From NCBI GenBank assembly GCA_016235165.1, contig JACRLX010000022.1:62001-126000 (forward strand): a DNA stretch of 64,000 nucleotides. Reading direction: 5' to 3'. The stretch comes from Rhodocyclales bacterium. Its GTDB lineage: Bacteria > Pseudomonadota > Gammaproteobacteria > Burkholderiales > Rhodocyclaceae. Position 1 is the first letter of the stretch; each line of letters begins with the position of its first letter. The notes below the pieces were generated by a model. The model was given only the letters and a program-made list of their open reading frames with translations, had not been told where the DNA came from and searched no databases. Positions 31,450-40,643 of this stretch are shown here, one piece after another. The position numbers and the translations under genes were made by a program.

Positions 31450-32619
31450 CTATTTTGAGTCCTGATCGAGCAAGCGCAGGATTTCATGCGCCTGAGGTAT
31501 GCCGGCCTTTTCGGCCTGCTCCAGCCAACGGCGCGCCTCCTCGGGATCACGTGCCGTGCCACGCCCGGCCATATACAGGCGCCCGACATTGAACTGCCCG
31601 GGCGGGAAGCCTTCCCTTGCGGCCGCCAGGTAGTGCCCGAAGGCCGCCGTTTCATCCCTGGTCACGCCGCGTCCTTTTTCGTAAAGCTCGCCGAGATTGT
31701 TGCGCGCGGAGTTCTCGCCTTTCGTCGCCGCCTCGGCATAGAACTTGGCGGCGCGCGCTGGATCCGGTGTCCCGGAAATACCTTCCGCATGCATCCAACC
31801 CAGTAACGTGGTTGCGCTGGCTCGGCCGTCGCGAGCCGCTCGCTCCAGGCGCGCTAGGGCACACGCCGCGTCGGGTGGTTCCGCCTCCAGGCAGATGCGG
31901 CCCATGCGTTCGTTGGCGGCAACATGGCCGGCATCCGCCGCCTCGCGTATTAGATTGACAGCGCGCGCCGGATCGCTGTCTTCGATGCACTGGGCATAAC
32001 GAAAGCGGGCACCGGCAAAGCCCTTTTCCACGGCTGCGGCAAAGCGCAGGCAGGCCCGCTCCACGCTTTTGGCACCTTCGAGCCCATGCAGTTCGATTAC
32101 CCCAAGCACGTAGTCGGCGGTCCCGATTCCGCGTGCAGCCATGTTTTCCAAGGCCGGACGGGTGCCTCCGAAGCGCCTGGGGAACTGGCCGGCATAGGCG
32201 GTAAACAGGGCGTCGTTGCCCCGCGACAGCGCCTTTTCCGCCGATCGCAGCGCGCGCAACGCCAATTCGGCCAGCTTCTGATTGGCCTGCGTGTCATCCG
32301 GAGTTACCGCCAACGCGTTTTGCAATGCAACCGCGTCCTCGTCGATAAGCTGGAACTCAGCCGCGGGATCGAACTGTAGCGGCGCGGCGACGGGTTTTCC
32401 TGGTGGTGTTTTTCTTGAACCAAGTTTTGCAGCCTTGGTCTTGAGCTTGTGCTTATGCGTACTTGTGGCGATCTTTTTTGGCCTTGTCTTCGCCCAAGTG
32501 GGATCCGTCGGCCCGAGTGTCAGGCCAAGGGCGATCAACAGGCTGGTGGCGATGCTGTAAAATCTTCTCAAATCAAAAAGTAACGGCGTGCTGATGAGGT
32601 CGATTCTTAATTTTGGCAT
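31450..32619 (-). CDS. Exported Sel1/TPR-repeat protein
   Basis: A protein of about 389 residues, if it starts at 32619. A hydrophobic signal-like segment (FYSIATSLLIALGLTLG) is followed by a Lys-rich stretch. At least four Sel1 repeats then follow (for example ATTLLGWMHAEGISGTPDPARAAKFYAEAA and ARNNLGELYEKGRGVTRDETAA), folds that scaffold protein contacts. The start is uncertain: 32619 overlaps the divergent cytochrome c gene by 26 bases, and a TTG nearer the hydrophobic segment could be the real start. Confidence 0.7.
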   Translation of the reverse strand: MPKLRIDLISTPLLFDLRRFYSIATSLLIALGLTLGPTDPTWAKTRPKKIATSTHKHKLKTKAAKLGSRKTPPGKPVAAPLQFDPAAEFQLIDEDAVALQNALAVTPDDTQANQKLAELALRALRSAEKALSRGNDALFTAYAGQFPRRFGGTRPALENMAARGIGTADYVLGVIELHGLEGAKSVERACLRFAAAVEKGFAGARFRYAQCIEDSDPARAVNLIREAADAGHVAANERMGRICLEAEPPDAACALARLERAARDGRASATTLLGWMHAEGISGTPDPARAAKFYAEAATKGENSARNNLGELYEKGRGVTRDETAAFGHYLAAAREGFPPGQFNVGRLYMAGRGTARDPEEARRWLEQAEKAGIPQAHEILRLLDQDSK

Positions 32620-32956
32620 CGCGCTGAACAAGCTGATCATTGCGTCAGCACTGGCTTTCGCCTTGAATCCTGCGTTAGCGCAGGCGGTCAATGAAGACGC
32701 GGCAATGGAACTGGCCAAGGCGGGCAAGTGTTTCCGCTGTCATTCCGTCGAGAAGGCCAAGAAGGCGCCCTCCTACAAGCGGATTGCCGAGCGCTACAAG
32801 GGGAAGGCGGATGCGGAGGCGAAATTGGTCCAGCACCTCTCGGGAACCAGATCCGTCAAGGTTGAAGGTGGCGGCGATGAGGAACACGATCCGCCGCCAG
32901 CCAAGGATGCTGCCGATCTCAAGAACCTGGTGCATTGGATATTGTCTCGGGGGTAG
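32594..32956 (+). CDS. Small class I cytochrome c
   Basis: A 120-residue periplasmic monohaem cytochrome. A signal peptide ends at ALAQA near residue 30. The haem site CFRCH is near 45-49. An SGTRSVKVEGGGDEEHDPP segment precedes the C-terminal helix with DLKNLVHWIL. The usual Met ligand is not obvious. Its haem domain resembles the C-terminal domain of the dihaem protein at 36712-37926. It converges on the MtrB-like gene and could be a soluble electron carrier for that system; this is inferred from position only. Confidence 0.8.
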   Translation: MRSILNFGIALNKLIIASALAFALNPALAQAVNEDAAMELAKAGKCFRCHSVEKAKKAPSYKRIAERYKGKADAEAKLVQHLSGTRSVKVEGGGDEEHDPPPAKDAADLKNLVHWILSRG

Positions 32957-33034: not shown

Positions 33035-35344
33035 TTACCAGTTCTTGATGACCGCGGACACGCCGAACACATGGTTGCTGGAGCGCGGCGCGGTCTGGCC
33101 GTTCAGCAGAATGTTCGCGTCGCTGGTCGCGGCAAGGTTGTCATAGGCCCAGTCGGCGGACTTCAGGTTCTCGTAGATATAGTTGAAGCGCCAGGTGATC
33201 TGCTTGCTGTAATCCCACTTGGCGAAGAGCTGCAGGGTATGCAGTTTGCTCCAGTTGTCTGGCATGTTGGTTTGCGCCGGCGCAATGCCGGTACCTGTTG
33301 ATATCGCCGCTTTGCCGACACCGCTATTGAAGACATAGGTACCGCCAACATCCCATTTCTCCCAGTCTTCCGGCTGCCATTTCATGCCGAGGCCGAGCGT
33401 GTGGTCCCGGTTCAACAGATTGGCCGTCCATTCGAGGTTGGCTGCCGTCGCGGTAGCGCCCTGGCGGCTCCGTTGCTTGGTACCGGTATCGCCGAAGTTG
33501 TAGAAGGCAAATGTGGTCAGGTGTTCTTCCGGCTGCCACTGCGCGTCGAGACTCAGGTTGGTGCCGTCGGCCAGGGTGCGGCCAAGGCAGGTATCGGGGA
33601 GTCCGGCAATCGCCGCGGCCAGTCTTGCGTCGACGATGGTGCCGCAGTTCTTGTCTGCCGCGCGTTTGCGGAATGTGTCGGCACCGGCCTGAATGCTGAC
33701 AGTTTCCGAGACCGTCCAGTTGCCGGAGGCGCGAATGCGATCCTCGTCGAAATCCTGATACAGGAAGGAGCGCATTGCAGGATTGTTGGTATTGTTGGTT
33801 CCTGCTGCGGGATTCCAATAGGTGTTGCGGAAGTAGGAGTTCTTGTCGTACTCGGAACCGCGGCGCTGCGTATGGCTGTAGCCGACGTTGCCAAGGACAT
33901 CGGTACCGATGGGACGCCGTAGCTCCAAGGAGACCTTGTCGGTATTGGTGTAATCGCGGTCGGCGTGGTTCTCGTACTGCGCATCCTTCATGGAGTAATG
34001 GACGCTCTTGCGCTCGATTCCGGCACGCGCAATGGTCTTCGGGGCAATCTCGTAGTCGCCGTCGAGACTGAATAGGTGTTCCCGTGTGCTCAGCGGTGCG
34101 TTCCGCCGACTCCCGGTGTTGATTGCCGCCCCGGCAGGTACCGCGTTGTTGTCGCGGGAAACATACAGGTAGTTTGCGACCGGTGTCTGGTTGTCACTGT
34201 TGTGGTACTGATAGGCCAGCTTCAGATTCATCTTGTCGATGGGCTTGGTCGTAAGCGCCACATCGAGCAGGGACTTGACCACCTTCCCGTCCAGCGACGC
34301 CCTTGGGGGCACATTGCCGGCGGTACCGACGCCGAGGTTTGCGGAATAGGGCAGGAAGGCATCATTCTGGCGTGCGATGCTGTAGGAAAACTTGCTCGTC
34401 AGGCGAGTCGAATTGCTGAAGTTGTAGGCGCCAGTGGCATTGACCTGGTGATAGTCATTGCTCGGGGCGAGTGACATGCGTTGGGTGGCATCGCCAGCAT
34501 CGAATGGATTGGCCACGGAAAACGACGTCAGATTGTTGTGGAACTTCGAATAGCTGTAACCAAGAGAGAACTGGGCCAGCTTGCTGTTGTAGGAAAGGAC
34601 AGCGTCGACGATGCTCGTCTTGTCGTCGATCTGGTAAGGGACAAGCATGGATTTGCTTTGCGGGGTGGGCAATCCGGTCAGGCGAGTTCCATCGCGACGG
34701 TCCTCACGGAAGCTGACCTTCCAGTCCCAGTTGCTGCTGGCGAGGCCGCTGAATCCGATGCGCAGAATGTCGCGGTTCTGCTCGAGGTCGAACTTCTTCA
34801 TCACGGCATTCAGGTTCGCGGCGTTGGACGAAACGCCGTTGTTGATGGCGAACCCCGCAGGAAGTGTCAGGTTGCTGGTACCGAGTCCATCATGGATGAA
34901 ATAGGTCGGTGATGTCAGTGCCTTGCTCAACTGGTCATAGCTGAAGCTGGCATTCCAGAGTCCCTGCACACCGCCATCGGCCTGAAACTTGCGCGAATCG
35001 AGACCGAGCGTGGAGCTGAAGACATGCCAGTACTGGGCATCGTTGTTCGCGTCCCGGGAAAGCCAGTTGAAACCCGCTATGGGGAACCCCCCCTTGTCCT
35101 TCAGGCCTGAAAACTGGCCGAAGCGGTATCCCCGCTGGGTATTGGTTCCAACGCCAAGTTCGACGTAGTTGTCCGACCAGCGCGACATGTCGGCGTCGCG
35201 GAACAAAATGTCGGTGTCCTTGAAGAGCCGCGCGGTCATAACGGGGTCGGCAAGCGCCGGGCCGGTGCCAAGGGCGGCGAGGGCGGATGCGACGGCCACG
35301 CCCATGGCGTGGCGGCGAAGGGTAATCAGATTGTCCTGGTTCAT
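33035..35344 (-). CDS. MtrB/PioB-family outer-membrane beta-barrel
   Basis: A 769-residue porin-like protein that in Shewanella and relatives sheathes a decahaem cytochrome through the outer membrane. The signal peptide ends near ALADP (residue 33). The mature part is a succession of amphipathic strands ending with a terminal tryptophan (VSAVIKNW), as in outer-membrane barrels. Phrases such as YNFSNSTRLTSKFSYS and LSLGYSYSKFHNN recur. The N-terminal CxxC of Shewanella MtrB is not seen; only two cysteines occur, in one loop. It directly follows the decahaem gene. Direction of electron flow (metal reduction or iron oxidation) cannot be told. Confidence 0.85.
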   Translation of the reverse strand: MNQDNLITLRRHAMGVAVASALAALGTGPALADPVMTARLFKDTDILFRDADMSRWSDNYVELGVGTNTQRGYRFGQFSGLKDKGGFPIAGFNWLSRDANNDAQYWHVFSSTLGLDSRKFQADGGVQGLWNASFSYDQLSKALTSPTYFIHDGLGTSNLTLPAGFAINNGVSSNAANLNAVMKKFDLEQNRDILRIGFSGLASSNWDWKVSFREDRRDGTRLTGLPTPQSKSMLVPYQIDDKTSIVDAVLSYNSKLAQFSLGYSYSKFHNNLTSFSVANPFDAGDATQRMSLAPSNDYHQVNATGAYNFSNSTRLTSKFSYSIARQNDAFLPYSANLGVGTAGNVPPRASLDGKVVKSLLDVALTTKPIDKMNLKLAYQYHNSDNQTPVANYLYVSRDNNAVPAGAAINTGSRRNAPLSTREHLFSLDGDYEIAPKTIARAGIERKSVHYSMKDAQYENHADRDYTNTDKVSLELRRPIGTDVLGNVGYSHTQRRGSEYDKNSYFRNTYWNPAAGTNNTNNPAMRSFLYQDFDEDRIRASGNWTVSETVSIQAGADTFRKRAADKNCGTIVDARLAAAIAGLPDTCLGRTLADGTNLSLDAQWQPEEHLTTFAFYNFGDTGTKQRSRQGATATAANLEWTANLLNRDHTLGLGMKWQPEDWEKWDVGGTYVFNSGVGKAAISTGTGIAPAQTNMPDNWSKLHTLQLFAKWDYSKQITWRFNYIYENLKSADWAYDNLAATSDANILLNGQTAPRSSNHVFGVSAVIKNW

Positions 35345-35374: not shown

Positions 35375-36352
35375 TCAGCGCTGCAGACGCGCGCCGGAGG
35401 GATGGTTGGTCCCGTGGACCTTCATGTGGCAATTGGTACAGGATGCGCCGGCAACACGCTGGAGGTTCGCAGTGCTGGGCCCTCCCGGAAAGACCTCGGC
35501 GCCGAACGCGGTGCTGCCATGACCGGTGTTATGGCACTGTTGGCAAAGGTAGGGCATGCGCGTTTTGAGCATCGGCGAATTATTGGTGCCATGGGGGTCG
35601 TGGCAGTTGGTGCAGTCGTCCTGGGCCGAGCGATGTTCCCAGAGGAAAGGTCCGCGCATCTGGGCATGGCACTGGTAGCAGGTTTCATTGACCGAGTTCT
35701 TTTGCAGCGAGGCCTTGGTGGTCGAGCCGTGGGGCTGGTGGCAGGACGAGCAGGCGAAGAAGCCCGTCTTTGTCGGATGGGTGGAGATCCGGTGGATGGC
35801 GGCGCGCCGGTCCTGGTGACAGCTGAAACAGACGCTGGCCTGGGTTTCGGCGACGAGCACCGGGTCCTTGGTCGCATGCACACGGTGGCAACTGGCGCAG
35901 GCGGTTTTCGTCTGGTCGTGCTTGCTGCCCTGCCAATGCGTGCGGTTGCCGTTCTGGTGGCAGGACAGGCAGGCTTCGTTCTGTTGCTCCGAGGGCGCTT
36001 TGCTGCCAAAAACGACTGGAACCAGGCCGGCCTTGCGGGGGGTTTTCAGGTGCTCCGTCAGATCGCCGTGGCAACTGCCGCACATGGCGTCTTCGGGATT
36101 GCCGGTGAGCGAAGTACCCTTTGCCATGGGTGTCCGGGCATCTCCCTTGACCGCATGCCTGGTCCGAGTAATGCCGTAATAACCTTCGTGGCATTCGATG
36201 CAGGGTTTGATCTCACCGCTCTCCGTCCGTGTGCGGGGGTTCGCGCCATCTTTCCCGCCAGCCTGGGCATTTGCCTGATTCACCATGCCCAGCAACGCCA
36301 GCATGCTCAGGCAGGACACGATGGCGCGGAGGATTTTGCTGGGATTATTCAT
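35375..36352 (-). CDS. Decahaem c-type cytochrome (MtrA/PioA/MtoA type)
   Basis: A 325-residue periplasmic multihaem cytochrome. Ten CxxCH motifs are counted: CIECH, CGSCH, CLSCH, CASCH, CFSCH, CSSCH, CYQCH, CTNCH, CQQCH and CTNCH, plus many free histidines as distal ligands. The signal peptide ends at ANAQA (residue 31). The frame runs to 36433, but ATG 36352 yields a proper signal. With the barrel gene 30 bases downstream it matches the trans-outer-membrane conduits MtrAB, PioAB and MtoAB. No MtrC-like outer cytochrome is present, as in PioAB/MtoAB, which favours Fe(II) oxidation by analogy only. Confidence 0.9.
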   Translation of the reverse strand: MNNPSKILRAIVSCLSMLALLGMVNQANAQAGGKDGANPRTRTESGEIKPCIECHEGYYGITRTRHAVKGDARTPMAKGTSLTGNPEDAMCGSCHGDLTEHLKTPRKAGLVPVVFGSKAPSEQQNEACLSCHQNGNRTHWQGSKHDQTKTACASCHRVHATKDPVLVAETQASVCFSCHQDRRAAIHRISTHPTKTGFFACSSCHQPHGSTTKASLQKNSVNETCYQCHAQMRGPFLWEHRSAQDDCTNCHDPHGTNNSPMLKTRMPYLCQQCHNTGHGSTAFGAEVFPGGPSTANLQRVAGASCTNCHMKVHGTNHPSGARLQR

Positions 36353-36711
36353 GGTTTCGATTCCGACGAGGCGACGATGCGTTTCGCTGAACGGCTGGTT
36401 TTGGGCCATGCATTTCGACATGCAGGGACACAATCATGACAAATTACATTACTAAAGTTCTATTTCATATTGATTCAAACAGACTTTTCCCATCATTGCA
36501 AGCTGTTTGCTGGGTCCGGGCAGCTTTTTCCCTACATAGCTTGTTAGTTTTCTGCAACATCCCGAGATTCTTATTGTGAACAGCTAATTGTCGTGATTAG
36601 ATGAAGTTTTAGACGAGGTTTTTGCCGGCATGAGAAACCCATGACCTGCCGGTCGGCATGCCATGGATTGCGCGCTAGCGGAATTGGACCGGACGGCCCG
36701 GTGCCTGCGAC
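36353..36711. other. AT-rich intergenic region upstream of the decahaem cytochrome gene
   Basis: About 360 bases without a credible gene and far more AT-rich than the surroundings. It separates the MtrAB-like pair from the dihaem gene on the same strand, so it probably holds a promoter for the pair. On the minus strand TTGAAT (around 36470) could be a -35 box, but no clear -10 follows. No FNR-type palindrome is present. Confidence 0.4.
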
Positions 36712-37926
36712 CTACTTCGCGCGGGTCGCGATGTAGTCGGCAACGACCTTGTATTCGTTGCCTTTCATGTCGTCGGTGACGCCTTCTTCCTTGTGCGTCT
36801 TGTTCTTCGTCAGCCGCGAGACGACGCATTCCCAGTCGCCCTTGTATTTTTCGTGAATTTTCTTCATGGGCGGCCCGGTTTTCTTCTGCACGTAGGCATG
36901 GCATTGCGGACAGCCGACGCGCTCTATGATTGCCTTGGCGGCATTTTCATCCAGCGGGCCCGGTGGCGCGCCTGTCGGCGCCGGGCAAGGCGGCAGGTCG
37001 GAGCCGTCCCGATAGGCAAGCTTCTTCTTGCCGCCGGCGGGAGTTGATTCTGCCGGCTCGGCTTTCGCCGCCTCCTTTGCCTGAGCCTGGGCTTCGGCGT
37101 CGCGCTTTGCTCGTTCGTCGGCGTCGCGTTTTCGCTGTGCCACGGCCTCCACATCACGCCTGGCCTTGGCCTCGGCTTCCAGTCGGGCGCGTTCGTCGGC
37201 CTCGCGTTTTGCCGTCGCCTGGGCTTCGGCTTCCTTGCGCGCGCGTTCCTCGTTCTCCTTGCGGATTGCGTCCAGTGCCGCCGTGTCCTTGCGCGCCTTG
37301 GCCTCCGCCTCGCGCTTGGCCATGTCTTCCTTCTCCTGCTTTGCCCTGGCCTGGGCGTCGGCGTCGCGCCTGGCTAGCGCCTTGGCCTCCGCTTCCTGAC
37401 GCGCCCTGGCTTCGGTGTCTTTTTTCGCCTGGATCCTGGCCTCCGCCGCAGTCCTGGCTTTCGCTTCGGCTTCCCGCTTGGCCTGGGCTTTTGCCTCGGC
37501 AGCGGCCTTGGCCTTGGCTTCCGCCTCCTGCTTGGCTTTCTGCGCTGCGAGGCGCTTCGCCTCCGGGCTGCCGGGCTTGGGCCTGGCCGCCTCGGCCGTG
37601 GCCTGTTCTTCGAAAGTCGTGGCCGCAAGCCATTCCGCCAGGGCGCGGATCTCGGCCGGCGATACTTCCTTCAGCTCGTTGGCATGGGCGGCCGCGCCGG
37701 AGATCGCCGCGGACGTCTTGCCCGGGTCGCCCTTGAGCGTCCCGCGCATCACCTTTACCGAAAGGGCGATGCCACGGGCTTCATGGAAGTGACACTGGGA
37801 ACACTGCTTCCGGTCGAACAACGCGCGTCCGCCGGGCTTGGCCTGGGCCAGGGCGCCGGCGGCAAACAGCATGGCGGCCATACCGGCAAAATACTGGATG
37901 GAACGGGGAAAGCGCGGCGACGCCAT
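36712..37926 (-). CDS. Dihaem cytochrome with TolA-like helical linker
   Basis: A 404-residue exported protein. The signal peptide covers residues 1-29 (ends ALAQA). Haem domain 1 has CSQCH at 42-46. Residues 121-290 are an uninterrupted Ala/Glu/Lys/Arg-rich stretch (repeated units like REAEAKAR, KEAEAQATAKR) predicted to be a long helix or coiled coil as in TolA. Haem domain 2 has CPQCH at 339-343 and resembles the small cytochrome at 32594. As a single helix the linker would be about 25 nm, near the width of the periplasm. It lies upstream of the MtrAB-like pair and five bases after the DUF3365-type gene. Electron bridging is inference. Confidence 0.8.
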   Translation of the reverse strand: MASPRFPRSIQYFAGMAAMLFAAGALAQAKPGGRALFDRKQCSQCHFHEARGIALSVKVMRGTLKGDPGKTSAAISGAAAHANELKEVSPAEIRALAEWLAATTFEEQATAEAARPKPGSPEAKRLAAQKAKQEAEAKAKAAAEAKAQAKREAEAKARTAAEARIQAKKDTEARARQEAEAKALARRDADAQARAKQEKEDMAKREAEAKARKDTAALDAIRKENEERARKEAEAQATAKREADERARLEAEAKARRDVEAVAQRKRDADERAKRDAEAQAQAKEAAKAEPAESTPAGGKKKLAYRDGSDLPPCPAPTGAPPGPLDENAAKAIIERVGCPQCHAYVQKKTGPPMKKIHEKYKGDWECVVSRLTKNKTHKEEGVTDDMKGNEYKVVADYIATRAK

Positions 37927-37931
37927 CGGGT

Positions 37932-38813
37932 TCAACCTGGCTGCTTGTTGAAGAAGTCCATTGCCTTGATCAGGCTGCGCCGCATGCGGTTGAAGGATGA
38001 ACTCAGGTGGGCTACCTCGTCGCTGCCGCCTTCATTGAACTCGCCGATTTCAAAGTTGCCGCGGCTGATTTCCTCGGCAATCGCGGCCATCTCGCCCAGC
38101 CGGTTGATGATCAATCCGGAGAGCATGATGTTGAGCAGGACGAATACCGCGATAAAGACGCCGGTCAAGGTAAACATGAAGGTCTTGAACATGCGATCCG
38201 CATTGGCCACCGGCACCGACATGGGCACCATGACGATCTGGGCGCCGACGATTTCCTTGAGCTTCCAGCCATAGCCGTTGTCGCCGTAGATCTTGAACAT
38301 TTGCGGCGGTGCCTTTTCCGGCGTCGTGTGGCAGCCCAGGCAACCCGACTGCTTGATCTGGATCGGTCGCGCCAGATACAGGTAGGGCCCCTTGTTGGTT
38401 TCGCGCATGCCCCATTCCTCTGTCTTGGTGGCATCGGCGCGGAAAGAATTGATGACCCGCGCTTCCCAGTCGGCGGGGCGGTGCTTGACATTGGTCGGAT
38501 TCAGCGCAACTTCGCGGTAACCGTATTCGGGATAGCGCTTCTGTACCGCTTCCATGACCTTGTTGGCGGCGTAGGCCGGCACGCCCATCATCAACATCTC
38601 TTCTTCTTCGGAAGTTTCGCGCAGATTGGGGCCGACTTCGTTGACCGCCCAGGTGCGTGCGGAAAGGATGGTTTCCATCAGTACGCCGGCATTGGAAAGG
38701 ACTTCGTCGCGCGCGTTGTCGTTGAGCTGTTTGTAGGAAAAATAGCCGGACGCGGCCAAGGCAAGGCCGAACACGACCAGCAACATCAAATTGAACTTTC
38801 CCCTCAGCTTCAT
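37932..38813 (-). CDS. Membrane-bound DUF3365 (Tll0287-like) haem protein with HAMP
   Basis: A 293-residue inner-membrane protein. Helix 1 spans residues 9-25. A periplasmic Tll0287-like domain carries a c-type haem motif CLGCH at 158-162, with WAVNEVGPNLRE and ALNPTNVKHRPADWE segments typical of DUF3365. Helix 2 is at about 209-236 and a HAMP-like region at 237-285. No kinase, GGDEF or methyl-accepting output follows; the protein simply ends. It may be a membrane electron-transfer haem protein feeding the adjacent cytochromes, or a sensor partner lacking its own output. It is the first gene of the unit; a -10-like TATATT lies near 38917-38922. Confidence 0.75.
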   Translation of the reverse strand: MKLRGKFNLMLLVVFGLALAASGYFSYKQLNDNARDEVLSNAGVLMETILSARTWAVNEVGPNLRETSEEEEMLMMGVPAYAANKVMEAVQKRYPEYGYREVALNPTNVKHRPADWEARVINSFRADATKTEEWGMRETNKGPYLYLARPIQIKQSGCLGCHTTPEKAPPQMFKIYGDNGYGWKLKEIVGAQIVMVPMSVPVANADRMFKTFMFTLTGVFIAVFVLLNIMLSGLIINRLGEMAAIAEEISRGNFEIGEFNEGGSDEVAHLSSSFNRMRRSLIKAMDFFNKQPG

Positions 38814-38970: not shown

Positions 38971-39729
38971 GTGCGTCACTCTGTGTCCCAGGTTAGTGCT
39001 CCGGTTTCGACCACGGTCGTCGCCAGCGACATCGCTGGCGCCGCCGCTTTTGGCGCCGCCGTGCTGGAGCGCTTCGAGCAGGTCCTGGCCGTGGTGCGCG
39101 GCCTTGGTTTCGTGACCCAGGAGCCGGGCCGCCCGAATCTCACGCTTACCCTTGCCCCCGATCAGGAACCCGGATCCGCACTGGATGCCATGGCCAAGGC
39201 TGCCGCCGGATTCGATGCCGCCGTGACCCCGCTCAGCTTGCGTAGCGTGGTCCATTTCGGGGTTGTGTTCCGCACCGAGTCAGCCACCGGAGTCAGCTAT
39301 GTCGGCTCGGCAATTCGCACCACGCAAAGCGCCTTGCGTCGCGTACCGTCGGCCGGAGGGTTTCTGGCGACGGCAGAGTTTGCGGTCTATGCCGCCAAGT
39401 ACCCGCAACTGCCCTTCCGCATGCGGCCGGTCACCTCGGGAGCCGCGATCGACGGCCTCAGTCACCTGCTGTTTGGCGACATTGCCGCGGATATGGCGCC
39501 TGCTTCCGCGGTGGCATCCGGTATCGCCGATGCCGCTTTTGTCGAATTCGCCAAGCGGCGCCTGGCGGAGGAAATCGGCCCTTTCGCCAATGCACTGGTG
39601 GATCGCGCGGTGCGCGCCGCGACGGCGACGGACCAACTGGTGAGCCAGCTCGCGAGCGATATCGACAACCCGGCGGCGCGCAAGAAGTTCGAGGACGACA
39701 TGCTGCGTTTTGCCAAATCCAGATGCTGA
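38971..39729 (+). CDS. Uncharacterised protein
   Basis: A 252-residue soluble protein from a GTG start. The N-terminal part (TTVVASDIAGAAAFGAAVLERFEQVL) and the central VVHFGVVFRTESATGVSYVGSAIRTTQSALRRVP segment recall a degenerate class III nucleotide cyclase fold, but the catalytic Asp, Asn and Arg residues cannot be recognised. The C-terminal half is helical. The next gene begins 42 bases downstream on the same strand. Function unknown; a start further downstream is possible. Confidence 0.5.
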   Translation: MRHSVSQVSAPVSTTVVASDIAGAAAFGAAVLERFEQVLAVVRGLGFVTQEPGRPNLTLTLAPDQEPGSALDAMAKAAAGFDAAVTPLSLRSVVHFGVVFRTESATGVSYVGSAIRTTQSALRRVPSAGGFLATAEFAVYAAKYPQLPFRMRPVTSGAAIDGLSHLLFGDIAADMAPASAVASGIADAAFVEFAKRRLAEEIGPFANALVDRAVRAATATDQLVSQLASDIDNPAARKKFEDDMLRFAKSRC

Positions 39730-39770
39730 GGCCGATAGAATCGGCACTTGCTCATTCGGGACGGCTCAAC

Positions 39771-40643
39771 ATGGGTTTTTTCAGCAAGTTGCTGAACCAG
39801 TCGCAACCGGCGGCCTGCGTGCTGCCGGAAACCCACGCCGTGGTTCGGCAGATCGTCGGCGTGCTTGGCTACGATGTCGTCGCCACCGCCGATTACGGTT
39901 CGAGGTTGGCGCCGGCAGTGAATTTCGCGGTCGAATATTTCGACAAACAGATCGCCCAGATTCCCGGTCCGCTGGATATTTCCGCCGCGCACTACATGCA
40001 TCATCCCCTGGTCCATGCGCTGTTTCCGGCGCGCCAGGAAATTTCCCACGGCATCGGGCGCAGCGTGGATGTCAAGCAGCCCTTGGCATTTCTCGCCGGT
40101 GCCGACCAGCCCGAGGTGTTTGCCCTGCTCGGCGTGCGGCGGCAAAAGCCGTCCGGGAGTTCGAGCAGTCCGGTGTTTTCCGATCACACCCTGCGTTGCC
40201 TGGCGGCCACGGAATCGGGGGCGCGACAGGGCTTGCGCACCGCGGCGCTGACCCGCCTGGTGACCGCCTACGGCGAGCACCTGGACAAGTTGCGCAAGCA
40301 CGAAAAGTTGCCGCGCGCTTCCTGGAATATCGAAAACCGGGCCGACCTCGGTATGGCCGAGACCGACAAGGATGCGGTCGTGTTGGCCAAGGAGGAACTG
40401 CGTCCGCAAAAAATGCTGCGTGGCCTGGTGTCCTGGCTACAGCGTCCGGACGATGTGTTGCAGGTGATTGCCGAGGCACCGACAGGGACGCCAAACGATG
40501 CCGCCGCGCAAATCGAGGCCATGCCGGAGCTGAAAATTCTCGACCGTCGGCGCTGGCTGGTTTGCTACGTGCGCTTCCCCACCGCCGAGGGGGTCGCGGC
40601 CATGCATAACGAACACGGCCAGCATCGTTACATTCGCGTCTGA
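39771..40643 (+). CDS. Uncharacterised protein
   Basis: A 290-residue soluble protein, start MGFFSKLLNQSQ. Visible features are FAVEYFDKQIAQIPGPLDIS near residue 55, HYMHHPLVHALFP, a mid-protein SDHTLRCLAATESG with one of its few cysteines, and a C-terminal ELKILDRRRWLVCYVRFPTAEG. I recognise no domain. A -10-like TAGAAT lies at 39736. It is probably expressed with the gene before it; both stand between the cytochrome locus and PHB synthase. Confidence 0.55.
   Translation: MGFFSKLLNQSQPAACVLPETHAVVRQIVGVLGYDVVATADYGSRLAPAVNFAVEYFDKQIAQIPGPLDISAAHYMHHPLVHALFPARQEISHGIGRSVDVKQPLAFLAGADQPEVFALLGVRRQKPSGSSSSPVFSDHTLRCLAATESGARQGLRTAALTRLVTAYGEHLDKLRKHEKLPRASWNIENRADLGMAETDKDAVVLAKEELRPQKMLRGLVSWLQRPDDVLQVIAEAPTGTPNDAAAQIEAMPELKILDRRRWLVCYVRFPTAEGVAAMHNEHGQHRYIRV

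Follow-up and report, generated by a model that had tools for sequence, protein, structure and literature searches.

A two-headed class I cytochrome with a predicted jointed helical linker beside an MtrAB-type conduit: a candidate periplasmic electron carrier

Between quinone-linked proteins and the MtrAB conduit, electrons have to traverse the periplasm, and how they do so is disputed: weakly binding shuttles and long haem wires have both been proposed (PMC4484225, PMC10734462). The width of the periplasm is quoted as 250–300 Å (PMC8928145), and redox centres in electron transfer chains typically lie less than 15 Å apart (PMC11520253). MtoD of Sideroxydans lithotrophicus (PDB 4XXL), a periplasmic class I cytochrome of 11 kDa with a single haem, bis-His ligated and at +155 mV, has an MtrAB-type neighbour and was proposed as a periplasmic shuttle (PMC4412085). 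A later study describes another monohaem periplasmic carrier of S. lithotrophicus, PmcA, and reports that PmcA, not MtoD, interacts with MtoA and with the inner-membrane ImoA (PMC13390432). For the PCC3 periplasmic multihaem cytochromes, a crossing by one single protein has been proposed, in the form of a packed wire of 21–27 haems (PMC10734462, PMC5566968). The triheme cytochrome PgcA of Geobacter sulfurreducens works outside the cell with minerals; its monohaem domains are separate, on long flexible (PT)x linkers, and electron transfer by tethered motion over up to 180 Å, not along a packed haem chain, was demonstrated (PMC11520253). PdsA is described as a periplasmic dihaem cytochrome of some mtrCAB clusters (PMC8805035) and is compared here by that description.

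The window, the whole stretch of 64,000 nucleotides analysed here, encodes a cytochrome that resembles each of these in part. It shares with PgcA the separate monohaem domains on a long linker, and the tethered motion shown for PgcA is proposed here; however, a charged, single-jointed helix is predicted for its linker, which has 169 residues without Pro or Gly, and its gene lies beside mtrAB. The class I fold of its C-terminal head, the presumed periplasmic setting and the type of neighbour are those of MtoD, but two class I domains are joined, with the candidate distal His at another alignment column. PmcA, compared by its description, has one head instead of two. A single-protein crossing as proposed for PCC3 would here rely on two CxxCH motifs and a non-conducting helix. 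Like domain II of TolA, the protein has a long Ala/Glu/Lys-rich, putatively helical region in the periplasm, with cytochromes at both ends and a signal peptide assigned by eye in the places where TolA carries its membrane anchor and globular domain III (PMC8928145). Tethered haem domains are a published principle, and the helical, jointed version beside mtrAB is a variant of it; neither such a version nor any cytochrome on a single-helix linker was found in the open-licence literature, searched mostly through titles and the beginnings of abstracts. If the reading is true, free shuttles, haem wires and flexible tethers would be joined by a further route across the periplasm. A conserved, two-headed, jointed carrier in an mtrAB locus would be another, directly testable solution to the crossing and could become a component of engineered electron conduits.

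Table 1. Features of the two-headed cytochrome gene and its neighbours (positions in the window).
Feature	Position	Strand	Basis
Two-headed cytochrome gene	36712..37926	-	404 aa, ATG at 37926; orthologues in same genus
Signal peptide, about residues 1-28	37843..37926	-	Alignment, ALA before invariant Gln28; cleavage site by eye
N-terminal haem domain, residues 30-112, class I cytochrome c	37591..37839	-	Pfam, PDB profile, alignment
First CxxCH, residues 42-46, CSQCH	37789..37803	-	Translation
A/E/K/R helical linker (predicted), residues 122-284, 18-residue repeat	37075..37563	-	Composition, AlphaFold
Conserved joint RKDTAAL (predicted), residues 212-218	37273..37293	-	AlphaFold break in two orthologues, alignment
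C-terminal haem domain, residues 304-404	36715..37017	-	PDB profile, alignment, hhalign
Second CxxCH, residues 339-343, CPQCH	36898..36912	-	Translation
Tll0287-like haem c inner-membrane protein with HAMP	37932..38813	-	Pfam; stop 5 nt before cytochrome start
Decahaem MtrA/DmsE-family cytochrome, 10 CxxCH	35375..36421	-	TIGR03508, 248.6 bits (cut-off 192.2)
MtrB/PioB outer-membrane barrel	33035..35344	-	TIGR03509, 322.6 bits (cut-off 240.05)
Monohaem cytochrome, MtoD homologue	32594..32956	+	4xxl, E 2.3e-26; Pfam PF00034, 5e-8

The gene is read from the minus strand, the plus-strand frame of the same interval containing stops (Table 1). Its translation from the ATG agrees with the original prediction on both CxxCH motifs, which are present in all 13 sequences covering both heads (the window's included) out of 14 orthologues in total. 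In the alignment Gln28, the residue behind the presumed cleavage site, was kept in 14 of 14 sequences. No second hydrophobic segment was seen by eye and no anchor at either end, and in the alignment Cys is not conserved at any of the first 30 residues. The protein had been imagined as tethered; with a signal peptide placed by eye as its one hydrophobic segment, it differs in this from TolA, and tethering is not supported. A promoter and terminator scan returned no promoter-like site and six terminator-like sites against 4.7 in shuffles, and a plasmid search gave no match.

Judged from their profiles, both heads are class I haem domains and are homologous to each other (hhalign of the N-terminal against the C-terminal head, probability 93.9%, E 1.5e-7). 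The N-terminal head matched Pfam PF13442 at E 1e-4, under that family's cut-off, and as a profile against the PDB it matched a covalently connected c555 trimer and c551/c552; MtoD (4xxl) was not among its matches at E 0.1. For the C-terminal head MtoD was the best natural PDB match, at 1.1e-5 and ranked after the c555 trimer. This head is the best conserved part of the protein, with a mean column identity of 90% against 78% for the N-terminal domain. His81 (14/14) and Met60 are invariant in the N-terminal head and His378 (13/13), Cys314 and Cys367 in the C-terminal one, where the two cysteines perhaps form a disulfide. His81 and His378 align with each other and are both candidate distal ligands, and both heads are probably bis-His ligated. 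Met387 is disfavoured as a haem ligand because it is replaced by Leu in 6/13 sequences, whereas His/Met ligation is possible for the N-terminal head since Met60 is invariant. The assignment is made less certain by the distal His of MtoD-like proteins, which the alignment places in a longer loop, nine columns after His378, and by the missing MtoD match of the N-terminal head. The haem domains were modelled poorly by AlphaFold (block pLDDT 35–78), and fold searches with the models returned 7, 1 and 8 matches, none at E ≤0.001, the models being too uncertain.

The cytochrome had also been placed in a unit with a membrane haem protein and next to decahaem and barrel genes, and the Tll0287/HAMP, TIGR03508 and TIGR03509 matches bear this out. 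Scored by family, these neighbours are an MtrAB/MtoAB/PioAB-type porin-cytochrome conduit: mtrA starts 290 nt downstream of the two-headed gene and is followed by mtrB, whose product is the sole MtrB/PioB match in the genome. The upstream membrane protein carries a CLGCH motif, a Tll0287-like domain (Pfam, 2.2e-35) and a HAMP domain (5.6e-7), and its nearest solved relative in the PDB is Tll0287 itself (5b82, E 0.0036). Beside mtrB stands a monohaem MtoD homologue, here and in seven of the eight relatives' loci reaching that far; the His of its EEH motif aligns with a His of MtoD (4xxl). The presence of this gene speaks against the two-headed protein replacing the usual soluble shuttle, as had been suggested. 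Within 31450–32956, the MtoD-like gene (+) shares sequence with the beginning of a Sel1-repeat gene (-), and one of the two starts may be wrong. On the other side of the module, two divergent genes at 38971–40643 (+) encode proteins of 252 and 306 aa that have no Pfam match up to E 0.1; of the 13 fetched loci in which the module's start is present, 12 have the one and 12 the other. Elsewhere in the genome there are three NapC/NirT-family matches and a separate TolA on contig C17 (TIGR02794, over cut-off). OmcA/MtrC (TIGR03507) had no match in the genome; 14 control genomes also had none over the cut-off, so the comparison has no positive control.

The two-headed cytochrome was found in 14 of 31 same-genus genomes, its own included. 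A close-relative pattern search returned named records of this kind from two uncultured beta-proteobacteria, a Rhodocyclales bacterium and a Sulfuritalea sp. The Tll0287/HAMP gene is the upstream neighbour in 14/14, with a gap of 5 nt in the window and of 5–10 nt in the 13 fetched loci, and the two genes may be co-transcribed. Downstream, mtrA follows in 11/14, in one of them with the gene split over two contigs; in the remaining three the contig stops inside the two-headed gene or within about 0.45 kb past it. The layout of two haems and a linker near mtrAB, expected in relatives by the original prediction, was thus recovered.

Outside the genus the protein was not seen in the samples searched at family, order and class level, the genomes of which overlap between searches. 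When the whole protein was searched against 199 family genomes, 75 had some match, with both ends matched only in the window and one congener, and C-head-like cytochromes or linker-like stretches making up the others; as nine candidates were scored per genome, a miss in this search is weak. Head-domain profiles were used instead, because whole-protein queries attract unrelated A/E/K-rich proteins and single cytochromes. Apart from the own genome, the N-terminal domain had 11 weak matches in 399 order genomes, the strongest at E 1e-7 and all within frames of 110–362 aa; in 369 class genomes at E 1e-7 it matched the own genome alone. The C-terminal domain was matched in 14 of 297 family genomes at E 1e-9, with more than 100 bits only in the five that carry the module. 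Occurrence in one genus leaves little diversity for testing constraint.

Nineteen further mtrB loci of the genus were fetched, and 11 more contigs with an mtrB match, several of them fragments, were left out. One of the 19 (L121; G151:C72, 8866–10660) is a remnant of the same locus, in which the final 44 residues of the 306-aa divergent neighbour adjoin an mtrB that begins at residue 220. This stretch lacks the membrane haem gene, the two-headed gene and mtrA all at once, along with the 5' part of mtrB and the other divergent gene; the arrangement is either a deletion or an assembly join. The genes on its far side, which we take to be a PHA synthase and a PIN-type protein, are shared with the locus in the window. 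In the protein search, the L121 genome gave only weak matches, the best of them (E 1.6e-9) to a linker-like stretch. None of the other 18 mtrAB loci, several on short contigs, had the membrane haem gene or the N-terminal domain at E 1e-6. A gene like the window's monohaem cytochrome was present near 12 of these 18 and lay directly upstream of mtrA in four. Because of these absences and the 12 loci with a monohaem gene, the two-headed protein appears tied to one mtrAB type, occupying the place that a single-headed cytochrome has in some others. At a separate locus (L116; G211:C66, 4349–5543) the decahaem mtrA is split into two overlapping frames with six and four CxxCH motifs, through a frameshift or an assembly error.

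The linker had been described as about 170 residues of Ala, Glu, Lys and Arg without a helix breaker. In the window a Pro- and Gly-free run does extend over residues 122–290 (169 aa; 34% Ala, the remainder mainly E, K, R, Q and D), but single Gly or Pro residues lie inside the linker in 11/13 sequences and a conserved break is predicted in its middle. Nor is the linker a ruler, its length ranging from 142 to 283 aa among the 13 sequences, corresponding to 21–42 nm if each were one helix. The charge pattern is more than chance. Compared with composition shuffles, all 13 sequences had an excess of E→K pairs at i,i+4 (z 4.0 to 7.2) and a deficit of like charges at this spacing (z −4.5 to −5.7), figures that are inflated by the repeated units and by kinship among the sequences. 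When only non-Ala residues were shuffled, the median z was 4.3 and 5.6 for the two opposite-charge orders and −5.8 for like charges. Over lags of 2–44, a lag of 18 residues, or five helix turns, was the top self-match in 11/13 and the second in 2/13. Ala at every second position dominates the N-terminal arm in 13/13 and the C-terminal arm in some sequences only. In E. coli TolA (residues 51–310), by comparison, lag 18 was outside the four strongest and the every-second-position Ala was not seen over the domain. Between linker and C-terminal head lies a short, Ala/Pro-rich tail of 20–37 residues.

In the AlphaFold model of the window protein the linker is helical, with a pLDDT of 76–88 over residues 121–270 in blocks of ten and of 67 in 271–280. 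The expected helix, however, was not unbroken: it consists of helices 121–211 and 215–283, with a break at 212–214. In an orthologue with a far longer linker (L059), helices 186–293 and 296–404 are separated by a break at 294–295. Both breaks fall on the motif RKD(T/S/P)xxL, with the Asp at residue 214 in the window protein and 295 in L059. The models have a mean pLDDT of 65 and pTM values of 0.26 and 0.28, and as they share one set of 14 sequences, differently ordered, they are not independent. In the alignment the Asp of the joint is followed by Thr (11 sequences), Ser (1) or Pro (1), an invariant Leu stands at +4, and positions −12, +4 and +7 hold large hydrophobic residues in 13/13. Asp followed by Thr, Ser or Pro is a classical helix start. 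The middle of the linker, residues 191–235, is free of gaps, and its mean majority share of 0.84 exceeds those of the arms on either side (0.78 and 0.73). The linker is therefore predicted as two helices with a conserved break mid-way, and the modelled break is compatible with a kink and a hairpin alike.

On this material, we tentatively favour, at slightly less than even confidence, the reading that the two-headed protein is a soluble, jointed electron carrier of the periplasm that serves a single MtrAB conduit. This is supported by the linkage of the gene, with the Tll0287/HAMP gene upstream in every locus and mtrA downstream wherever the contig continues far enough, by L121, where the two-headed gene is absent along with its membrane haem neighbour, mtrA and the 5' part of mtrB, and by the 18 other mtrAB loci that have neither the membrane haem gene nor the N-terminal domain. 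Further support comes from the homology of the heads with their aligned His81 and His378, from the resemblance of the C-terminal head to the bis-His shuttle MtoD, from the break, which recurs at the same motif in two orthologues that differ in arm length, and from PgcA as a demonstrated case of tethered haem domains. The reading is weakened by the separate MtoD homologue, by which the carrier role is possibly already filled, by the upstream membrane protein, which is sensor-like and no known quinol oxidase, and by the poor haem domains in two AlphaFold models built from the same 14 sequences.

With docking partners, open and closed states and the direction of electron flow all presumed, such a carrier might work as follows. 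MtrA would most likely be the docking site of one head; the other would bind a partner in the inner membrane, with the Tll0287-haem/HAMP protein as the simplest candidate and a quinol-linked cytochrome as the alternative. Opened at the joint, the protein would reach about the width of the periplasm; closed at the joint, its heads would meet and an electron could pass between them, with the tail before the C-terminal head adding play. We consider it unlikely, but worth stating, that the crossing is caliper-like in full, the protein opening from the inner-membrane haem protein to MtrA and closing for the head-to-head transfer.

A different use of the same joint is the best-surviving alternative. 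The linker could fold back at the KDT turn into a helical hairpin of the kind put forward for TolA domain II. The two haem heads would then be neighbours at its open end, and the helices, instead of bridging, would act as a stalk or handle or offer a docking surface. Both AlphaFold models break at this turn, and in L059 the flanking helices are nearly equal in length (108 and 109 residues) and the block pLDDT is symmetric about the turn, with 86–92 in residues 191–230 and 88–96 in 361–400. This symmetry suggests packing of the arms, and thus a hairpin, in the L059 model, the window model being less clear. The description of TolA domain II as a hairpin (PMC8928145) fits the same picture and takes away the original parallel with TolA as a straight span of the periplasm. 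The arms, on the other hand, counted from the start of the linker, are unequal in most of the 13 sequences (difference −6 to +58). L058 differs from L063 and L060 by 18 residues in one arm and by 0–2 in the other, and L055/L056 differ from L061/L062 by 10 residues in one arm alone. The correlation between arm lengths (Pearson 0.70, Spearman 0.48, p 0.10) is swayed by the longest and shortest linkers. No hydrophobic stripe was found in the 26 arms of the 13 sequences, a test for a hairpin or coiled coil that does not discriminate because E. coli TolA domain II, described as a hairpin, has none either. A hairpin is a minority possibility, which we regard as doubtful rather than remote.

The linker as a rigid, straight rod of 25 nm that joins carriers on both membranes at once is quite improbable. 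The helix-forming composition and the opposite charges at i,i+4 would suit a rod, and its length is near the quoted periplasm width of 250–300 Å (PMC8928145), but the break is conserved, no anchor was seen at either end and the linker would span anything from 21 to 42 nm across the 13 sequences. The haems would moreover be too distant for direct transfer, compared with the less than 15 Å typical of redox chains (PMC11520253). A straight helix is non-conducting, and haems held 25 nm apart cannot exchange electrons along it, which removes the straight conducting bridge from the original proposal. For this reason a bridge works only if the heads meet or if each shuttles alone, as the jointed carrier would allow.

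A role beside the main electron flow is still less probable, though the most constant neighbour of the gene invites it: the two-headed protein could be the redox-sensing partner of the Tll0287/HAMP protein and report the state of MtrA. Besides its HAMP domain that protein has a haem domain of the Tll0287 type, and most of its NCBIfam hits, none of which reaches its cut-off, are to sensor kinases and chemoreceptors and cover the HAMP part. In Pfam, however, no kinase or methyl-accepting output domain was found behind the HAMP domain, and two redox heads together with the linkage to mtrAB suit a carrier better. The Tll0287/HAMP protein may descend from a sensor and serve in electron transfer. 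That the linker is a low-complexity expansion acting as a mere spacer is highly improbable, for although it is built of 18-residue repeat units and often changes by 18 or 10 residues between relatives, it is kept between two conserved heads in all 13 sequences covering both and its gap-free middle segment is better conserved than the flanking arms.

Long charged helices of another kind were also encountered. Four loci (L004, L005, L009 and L019) contain frames of 755–1063 aa with Pro-free, A/E/R/K-rich stretches of 241–583 residues, which carry no CxxCH motif and repeat at multiples of eight residues.
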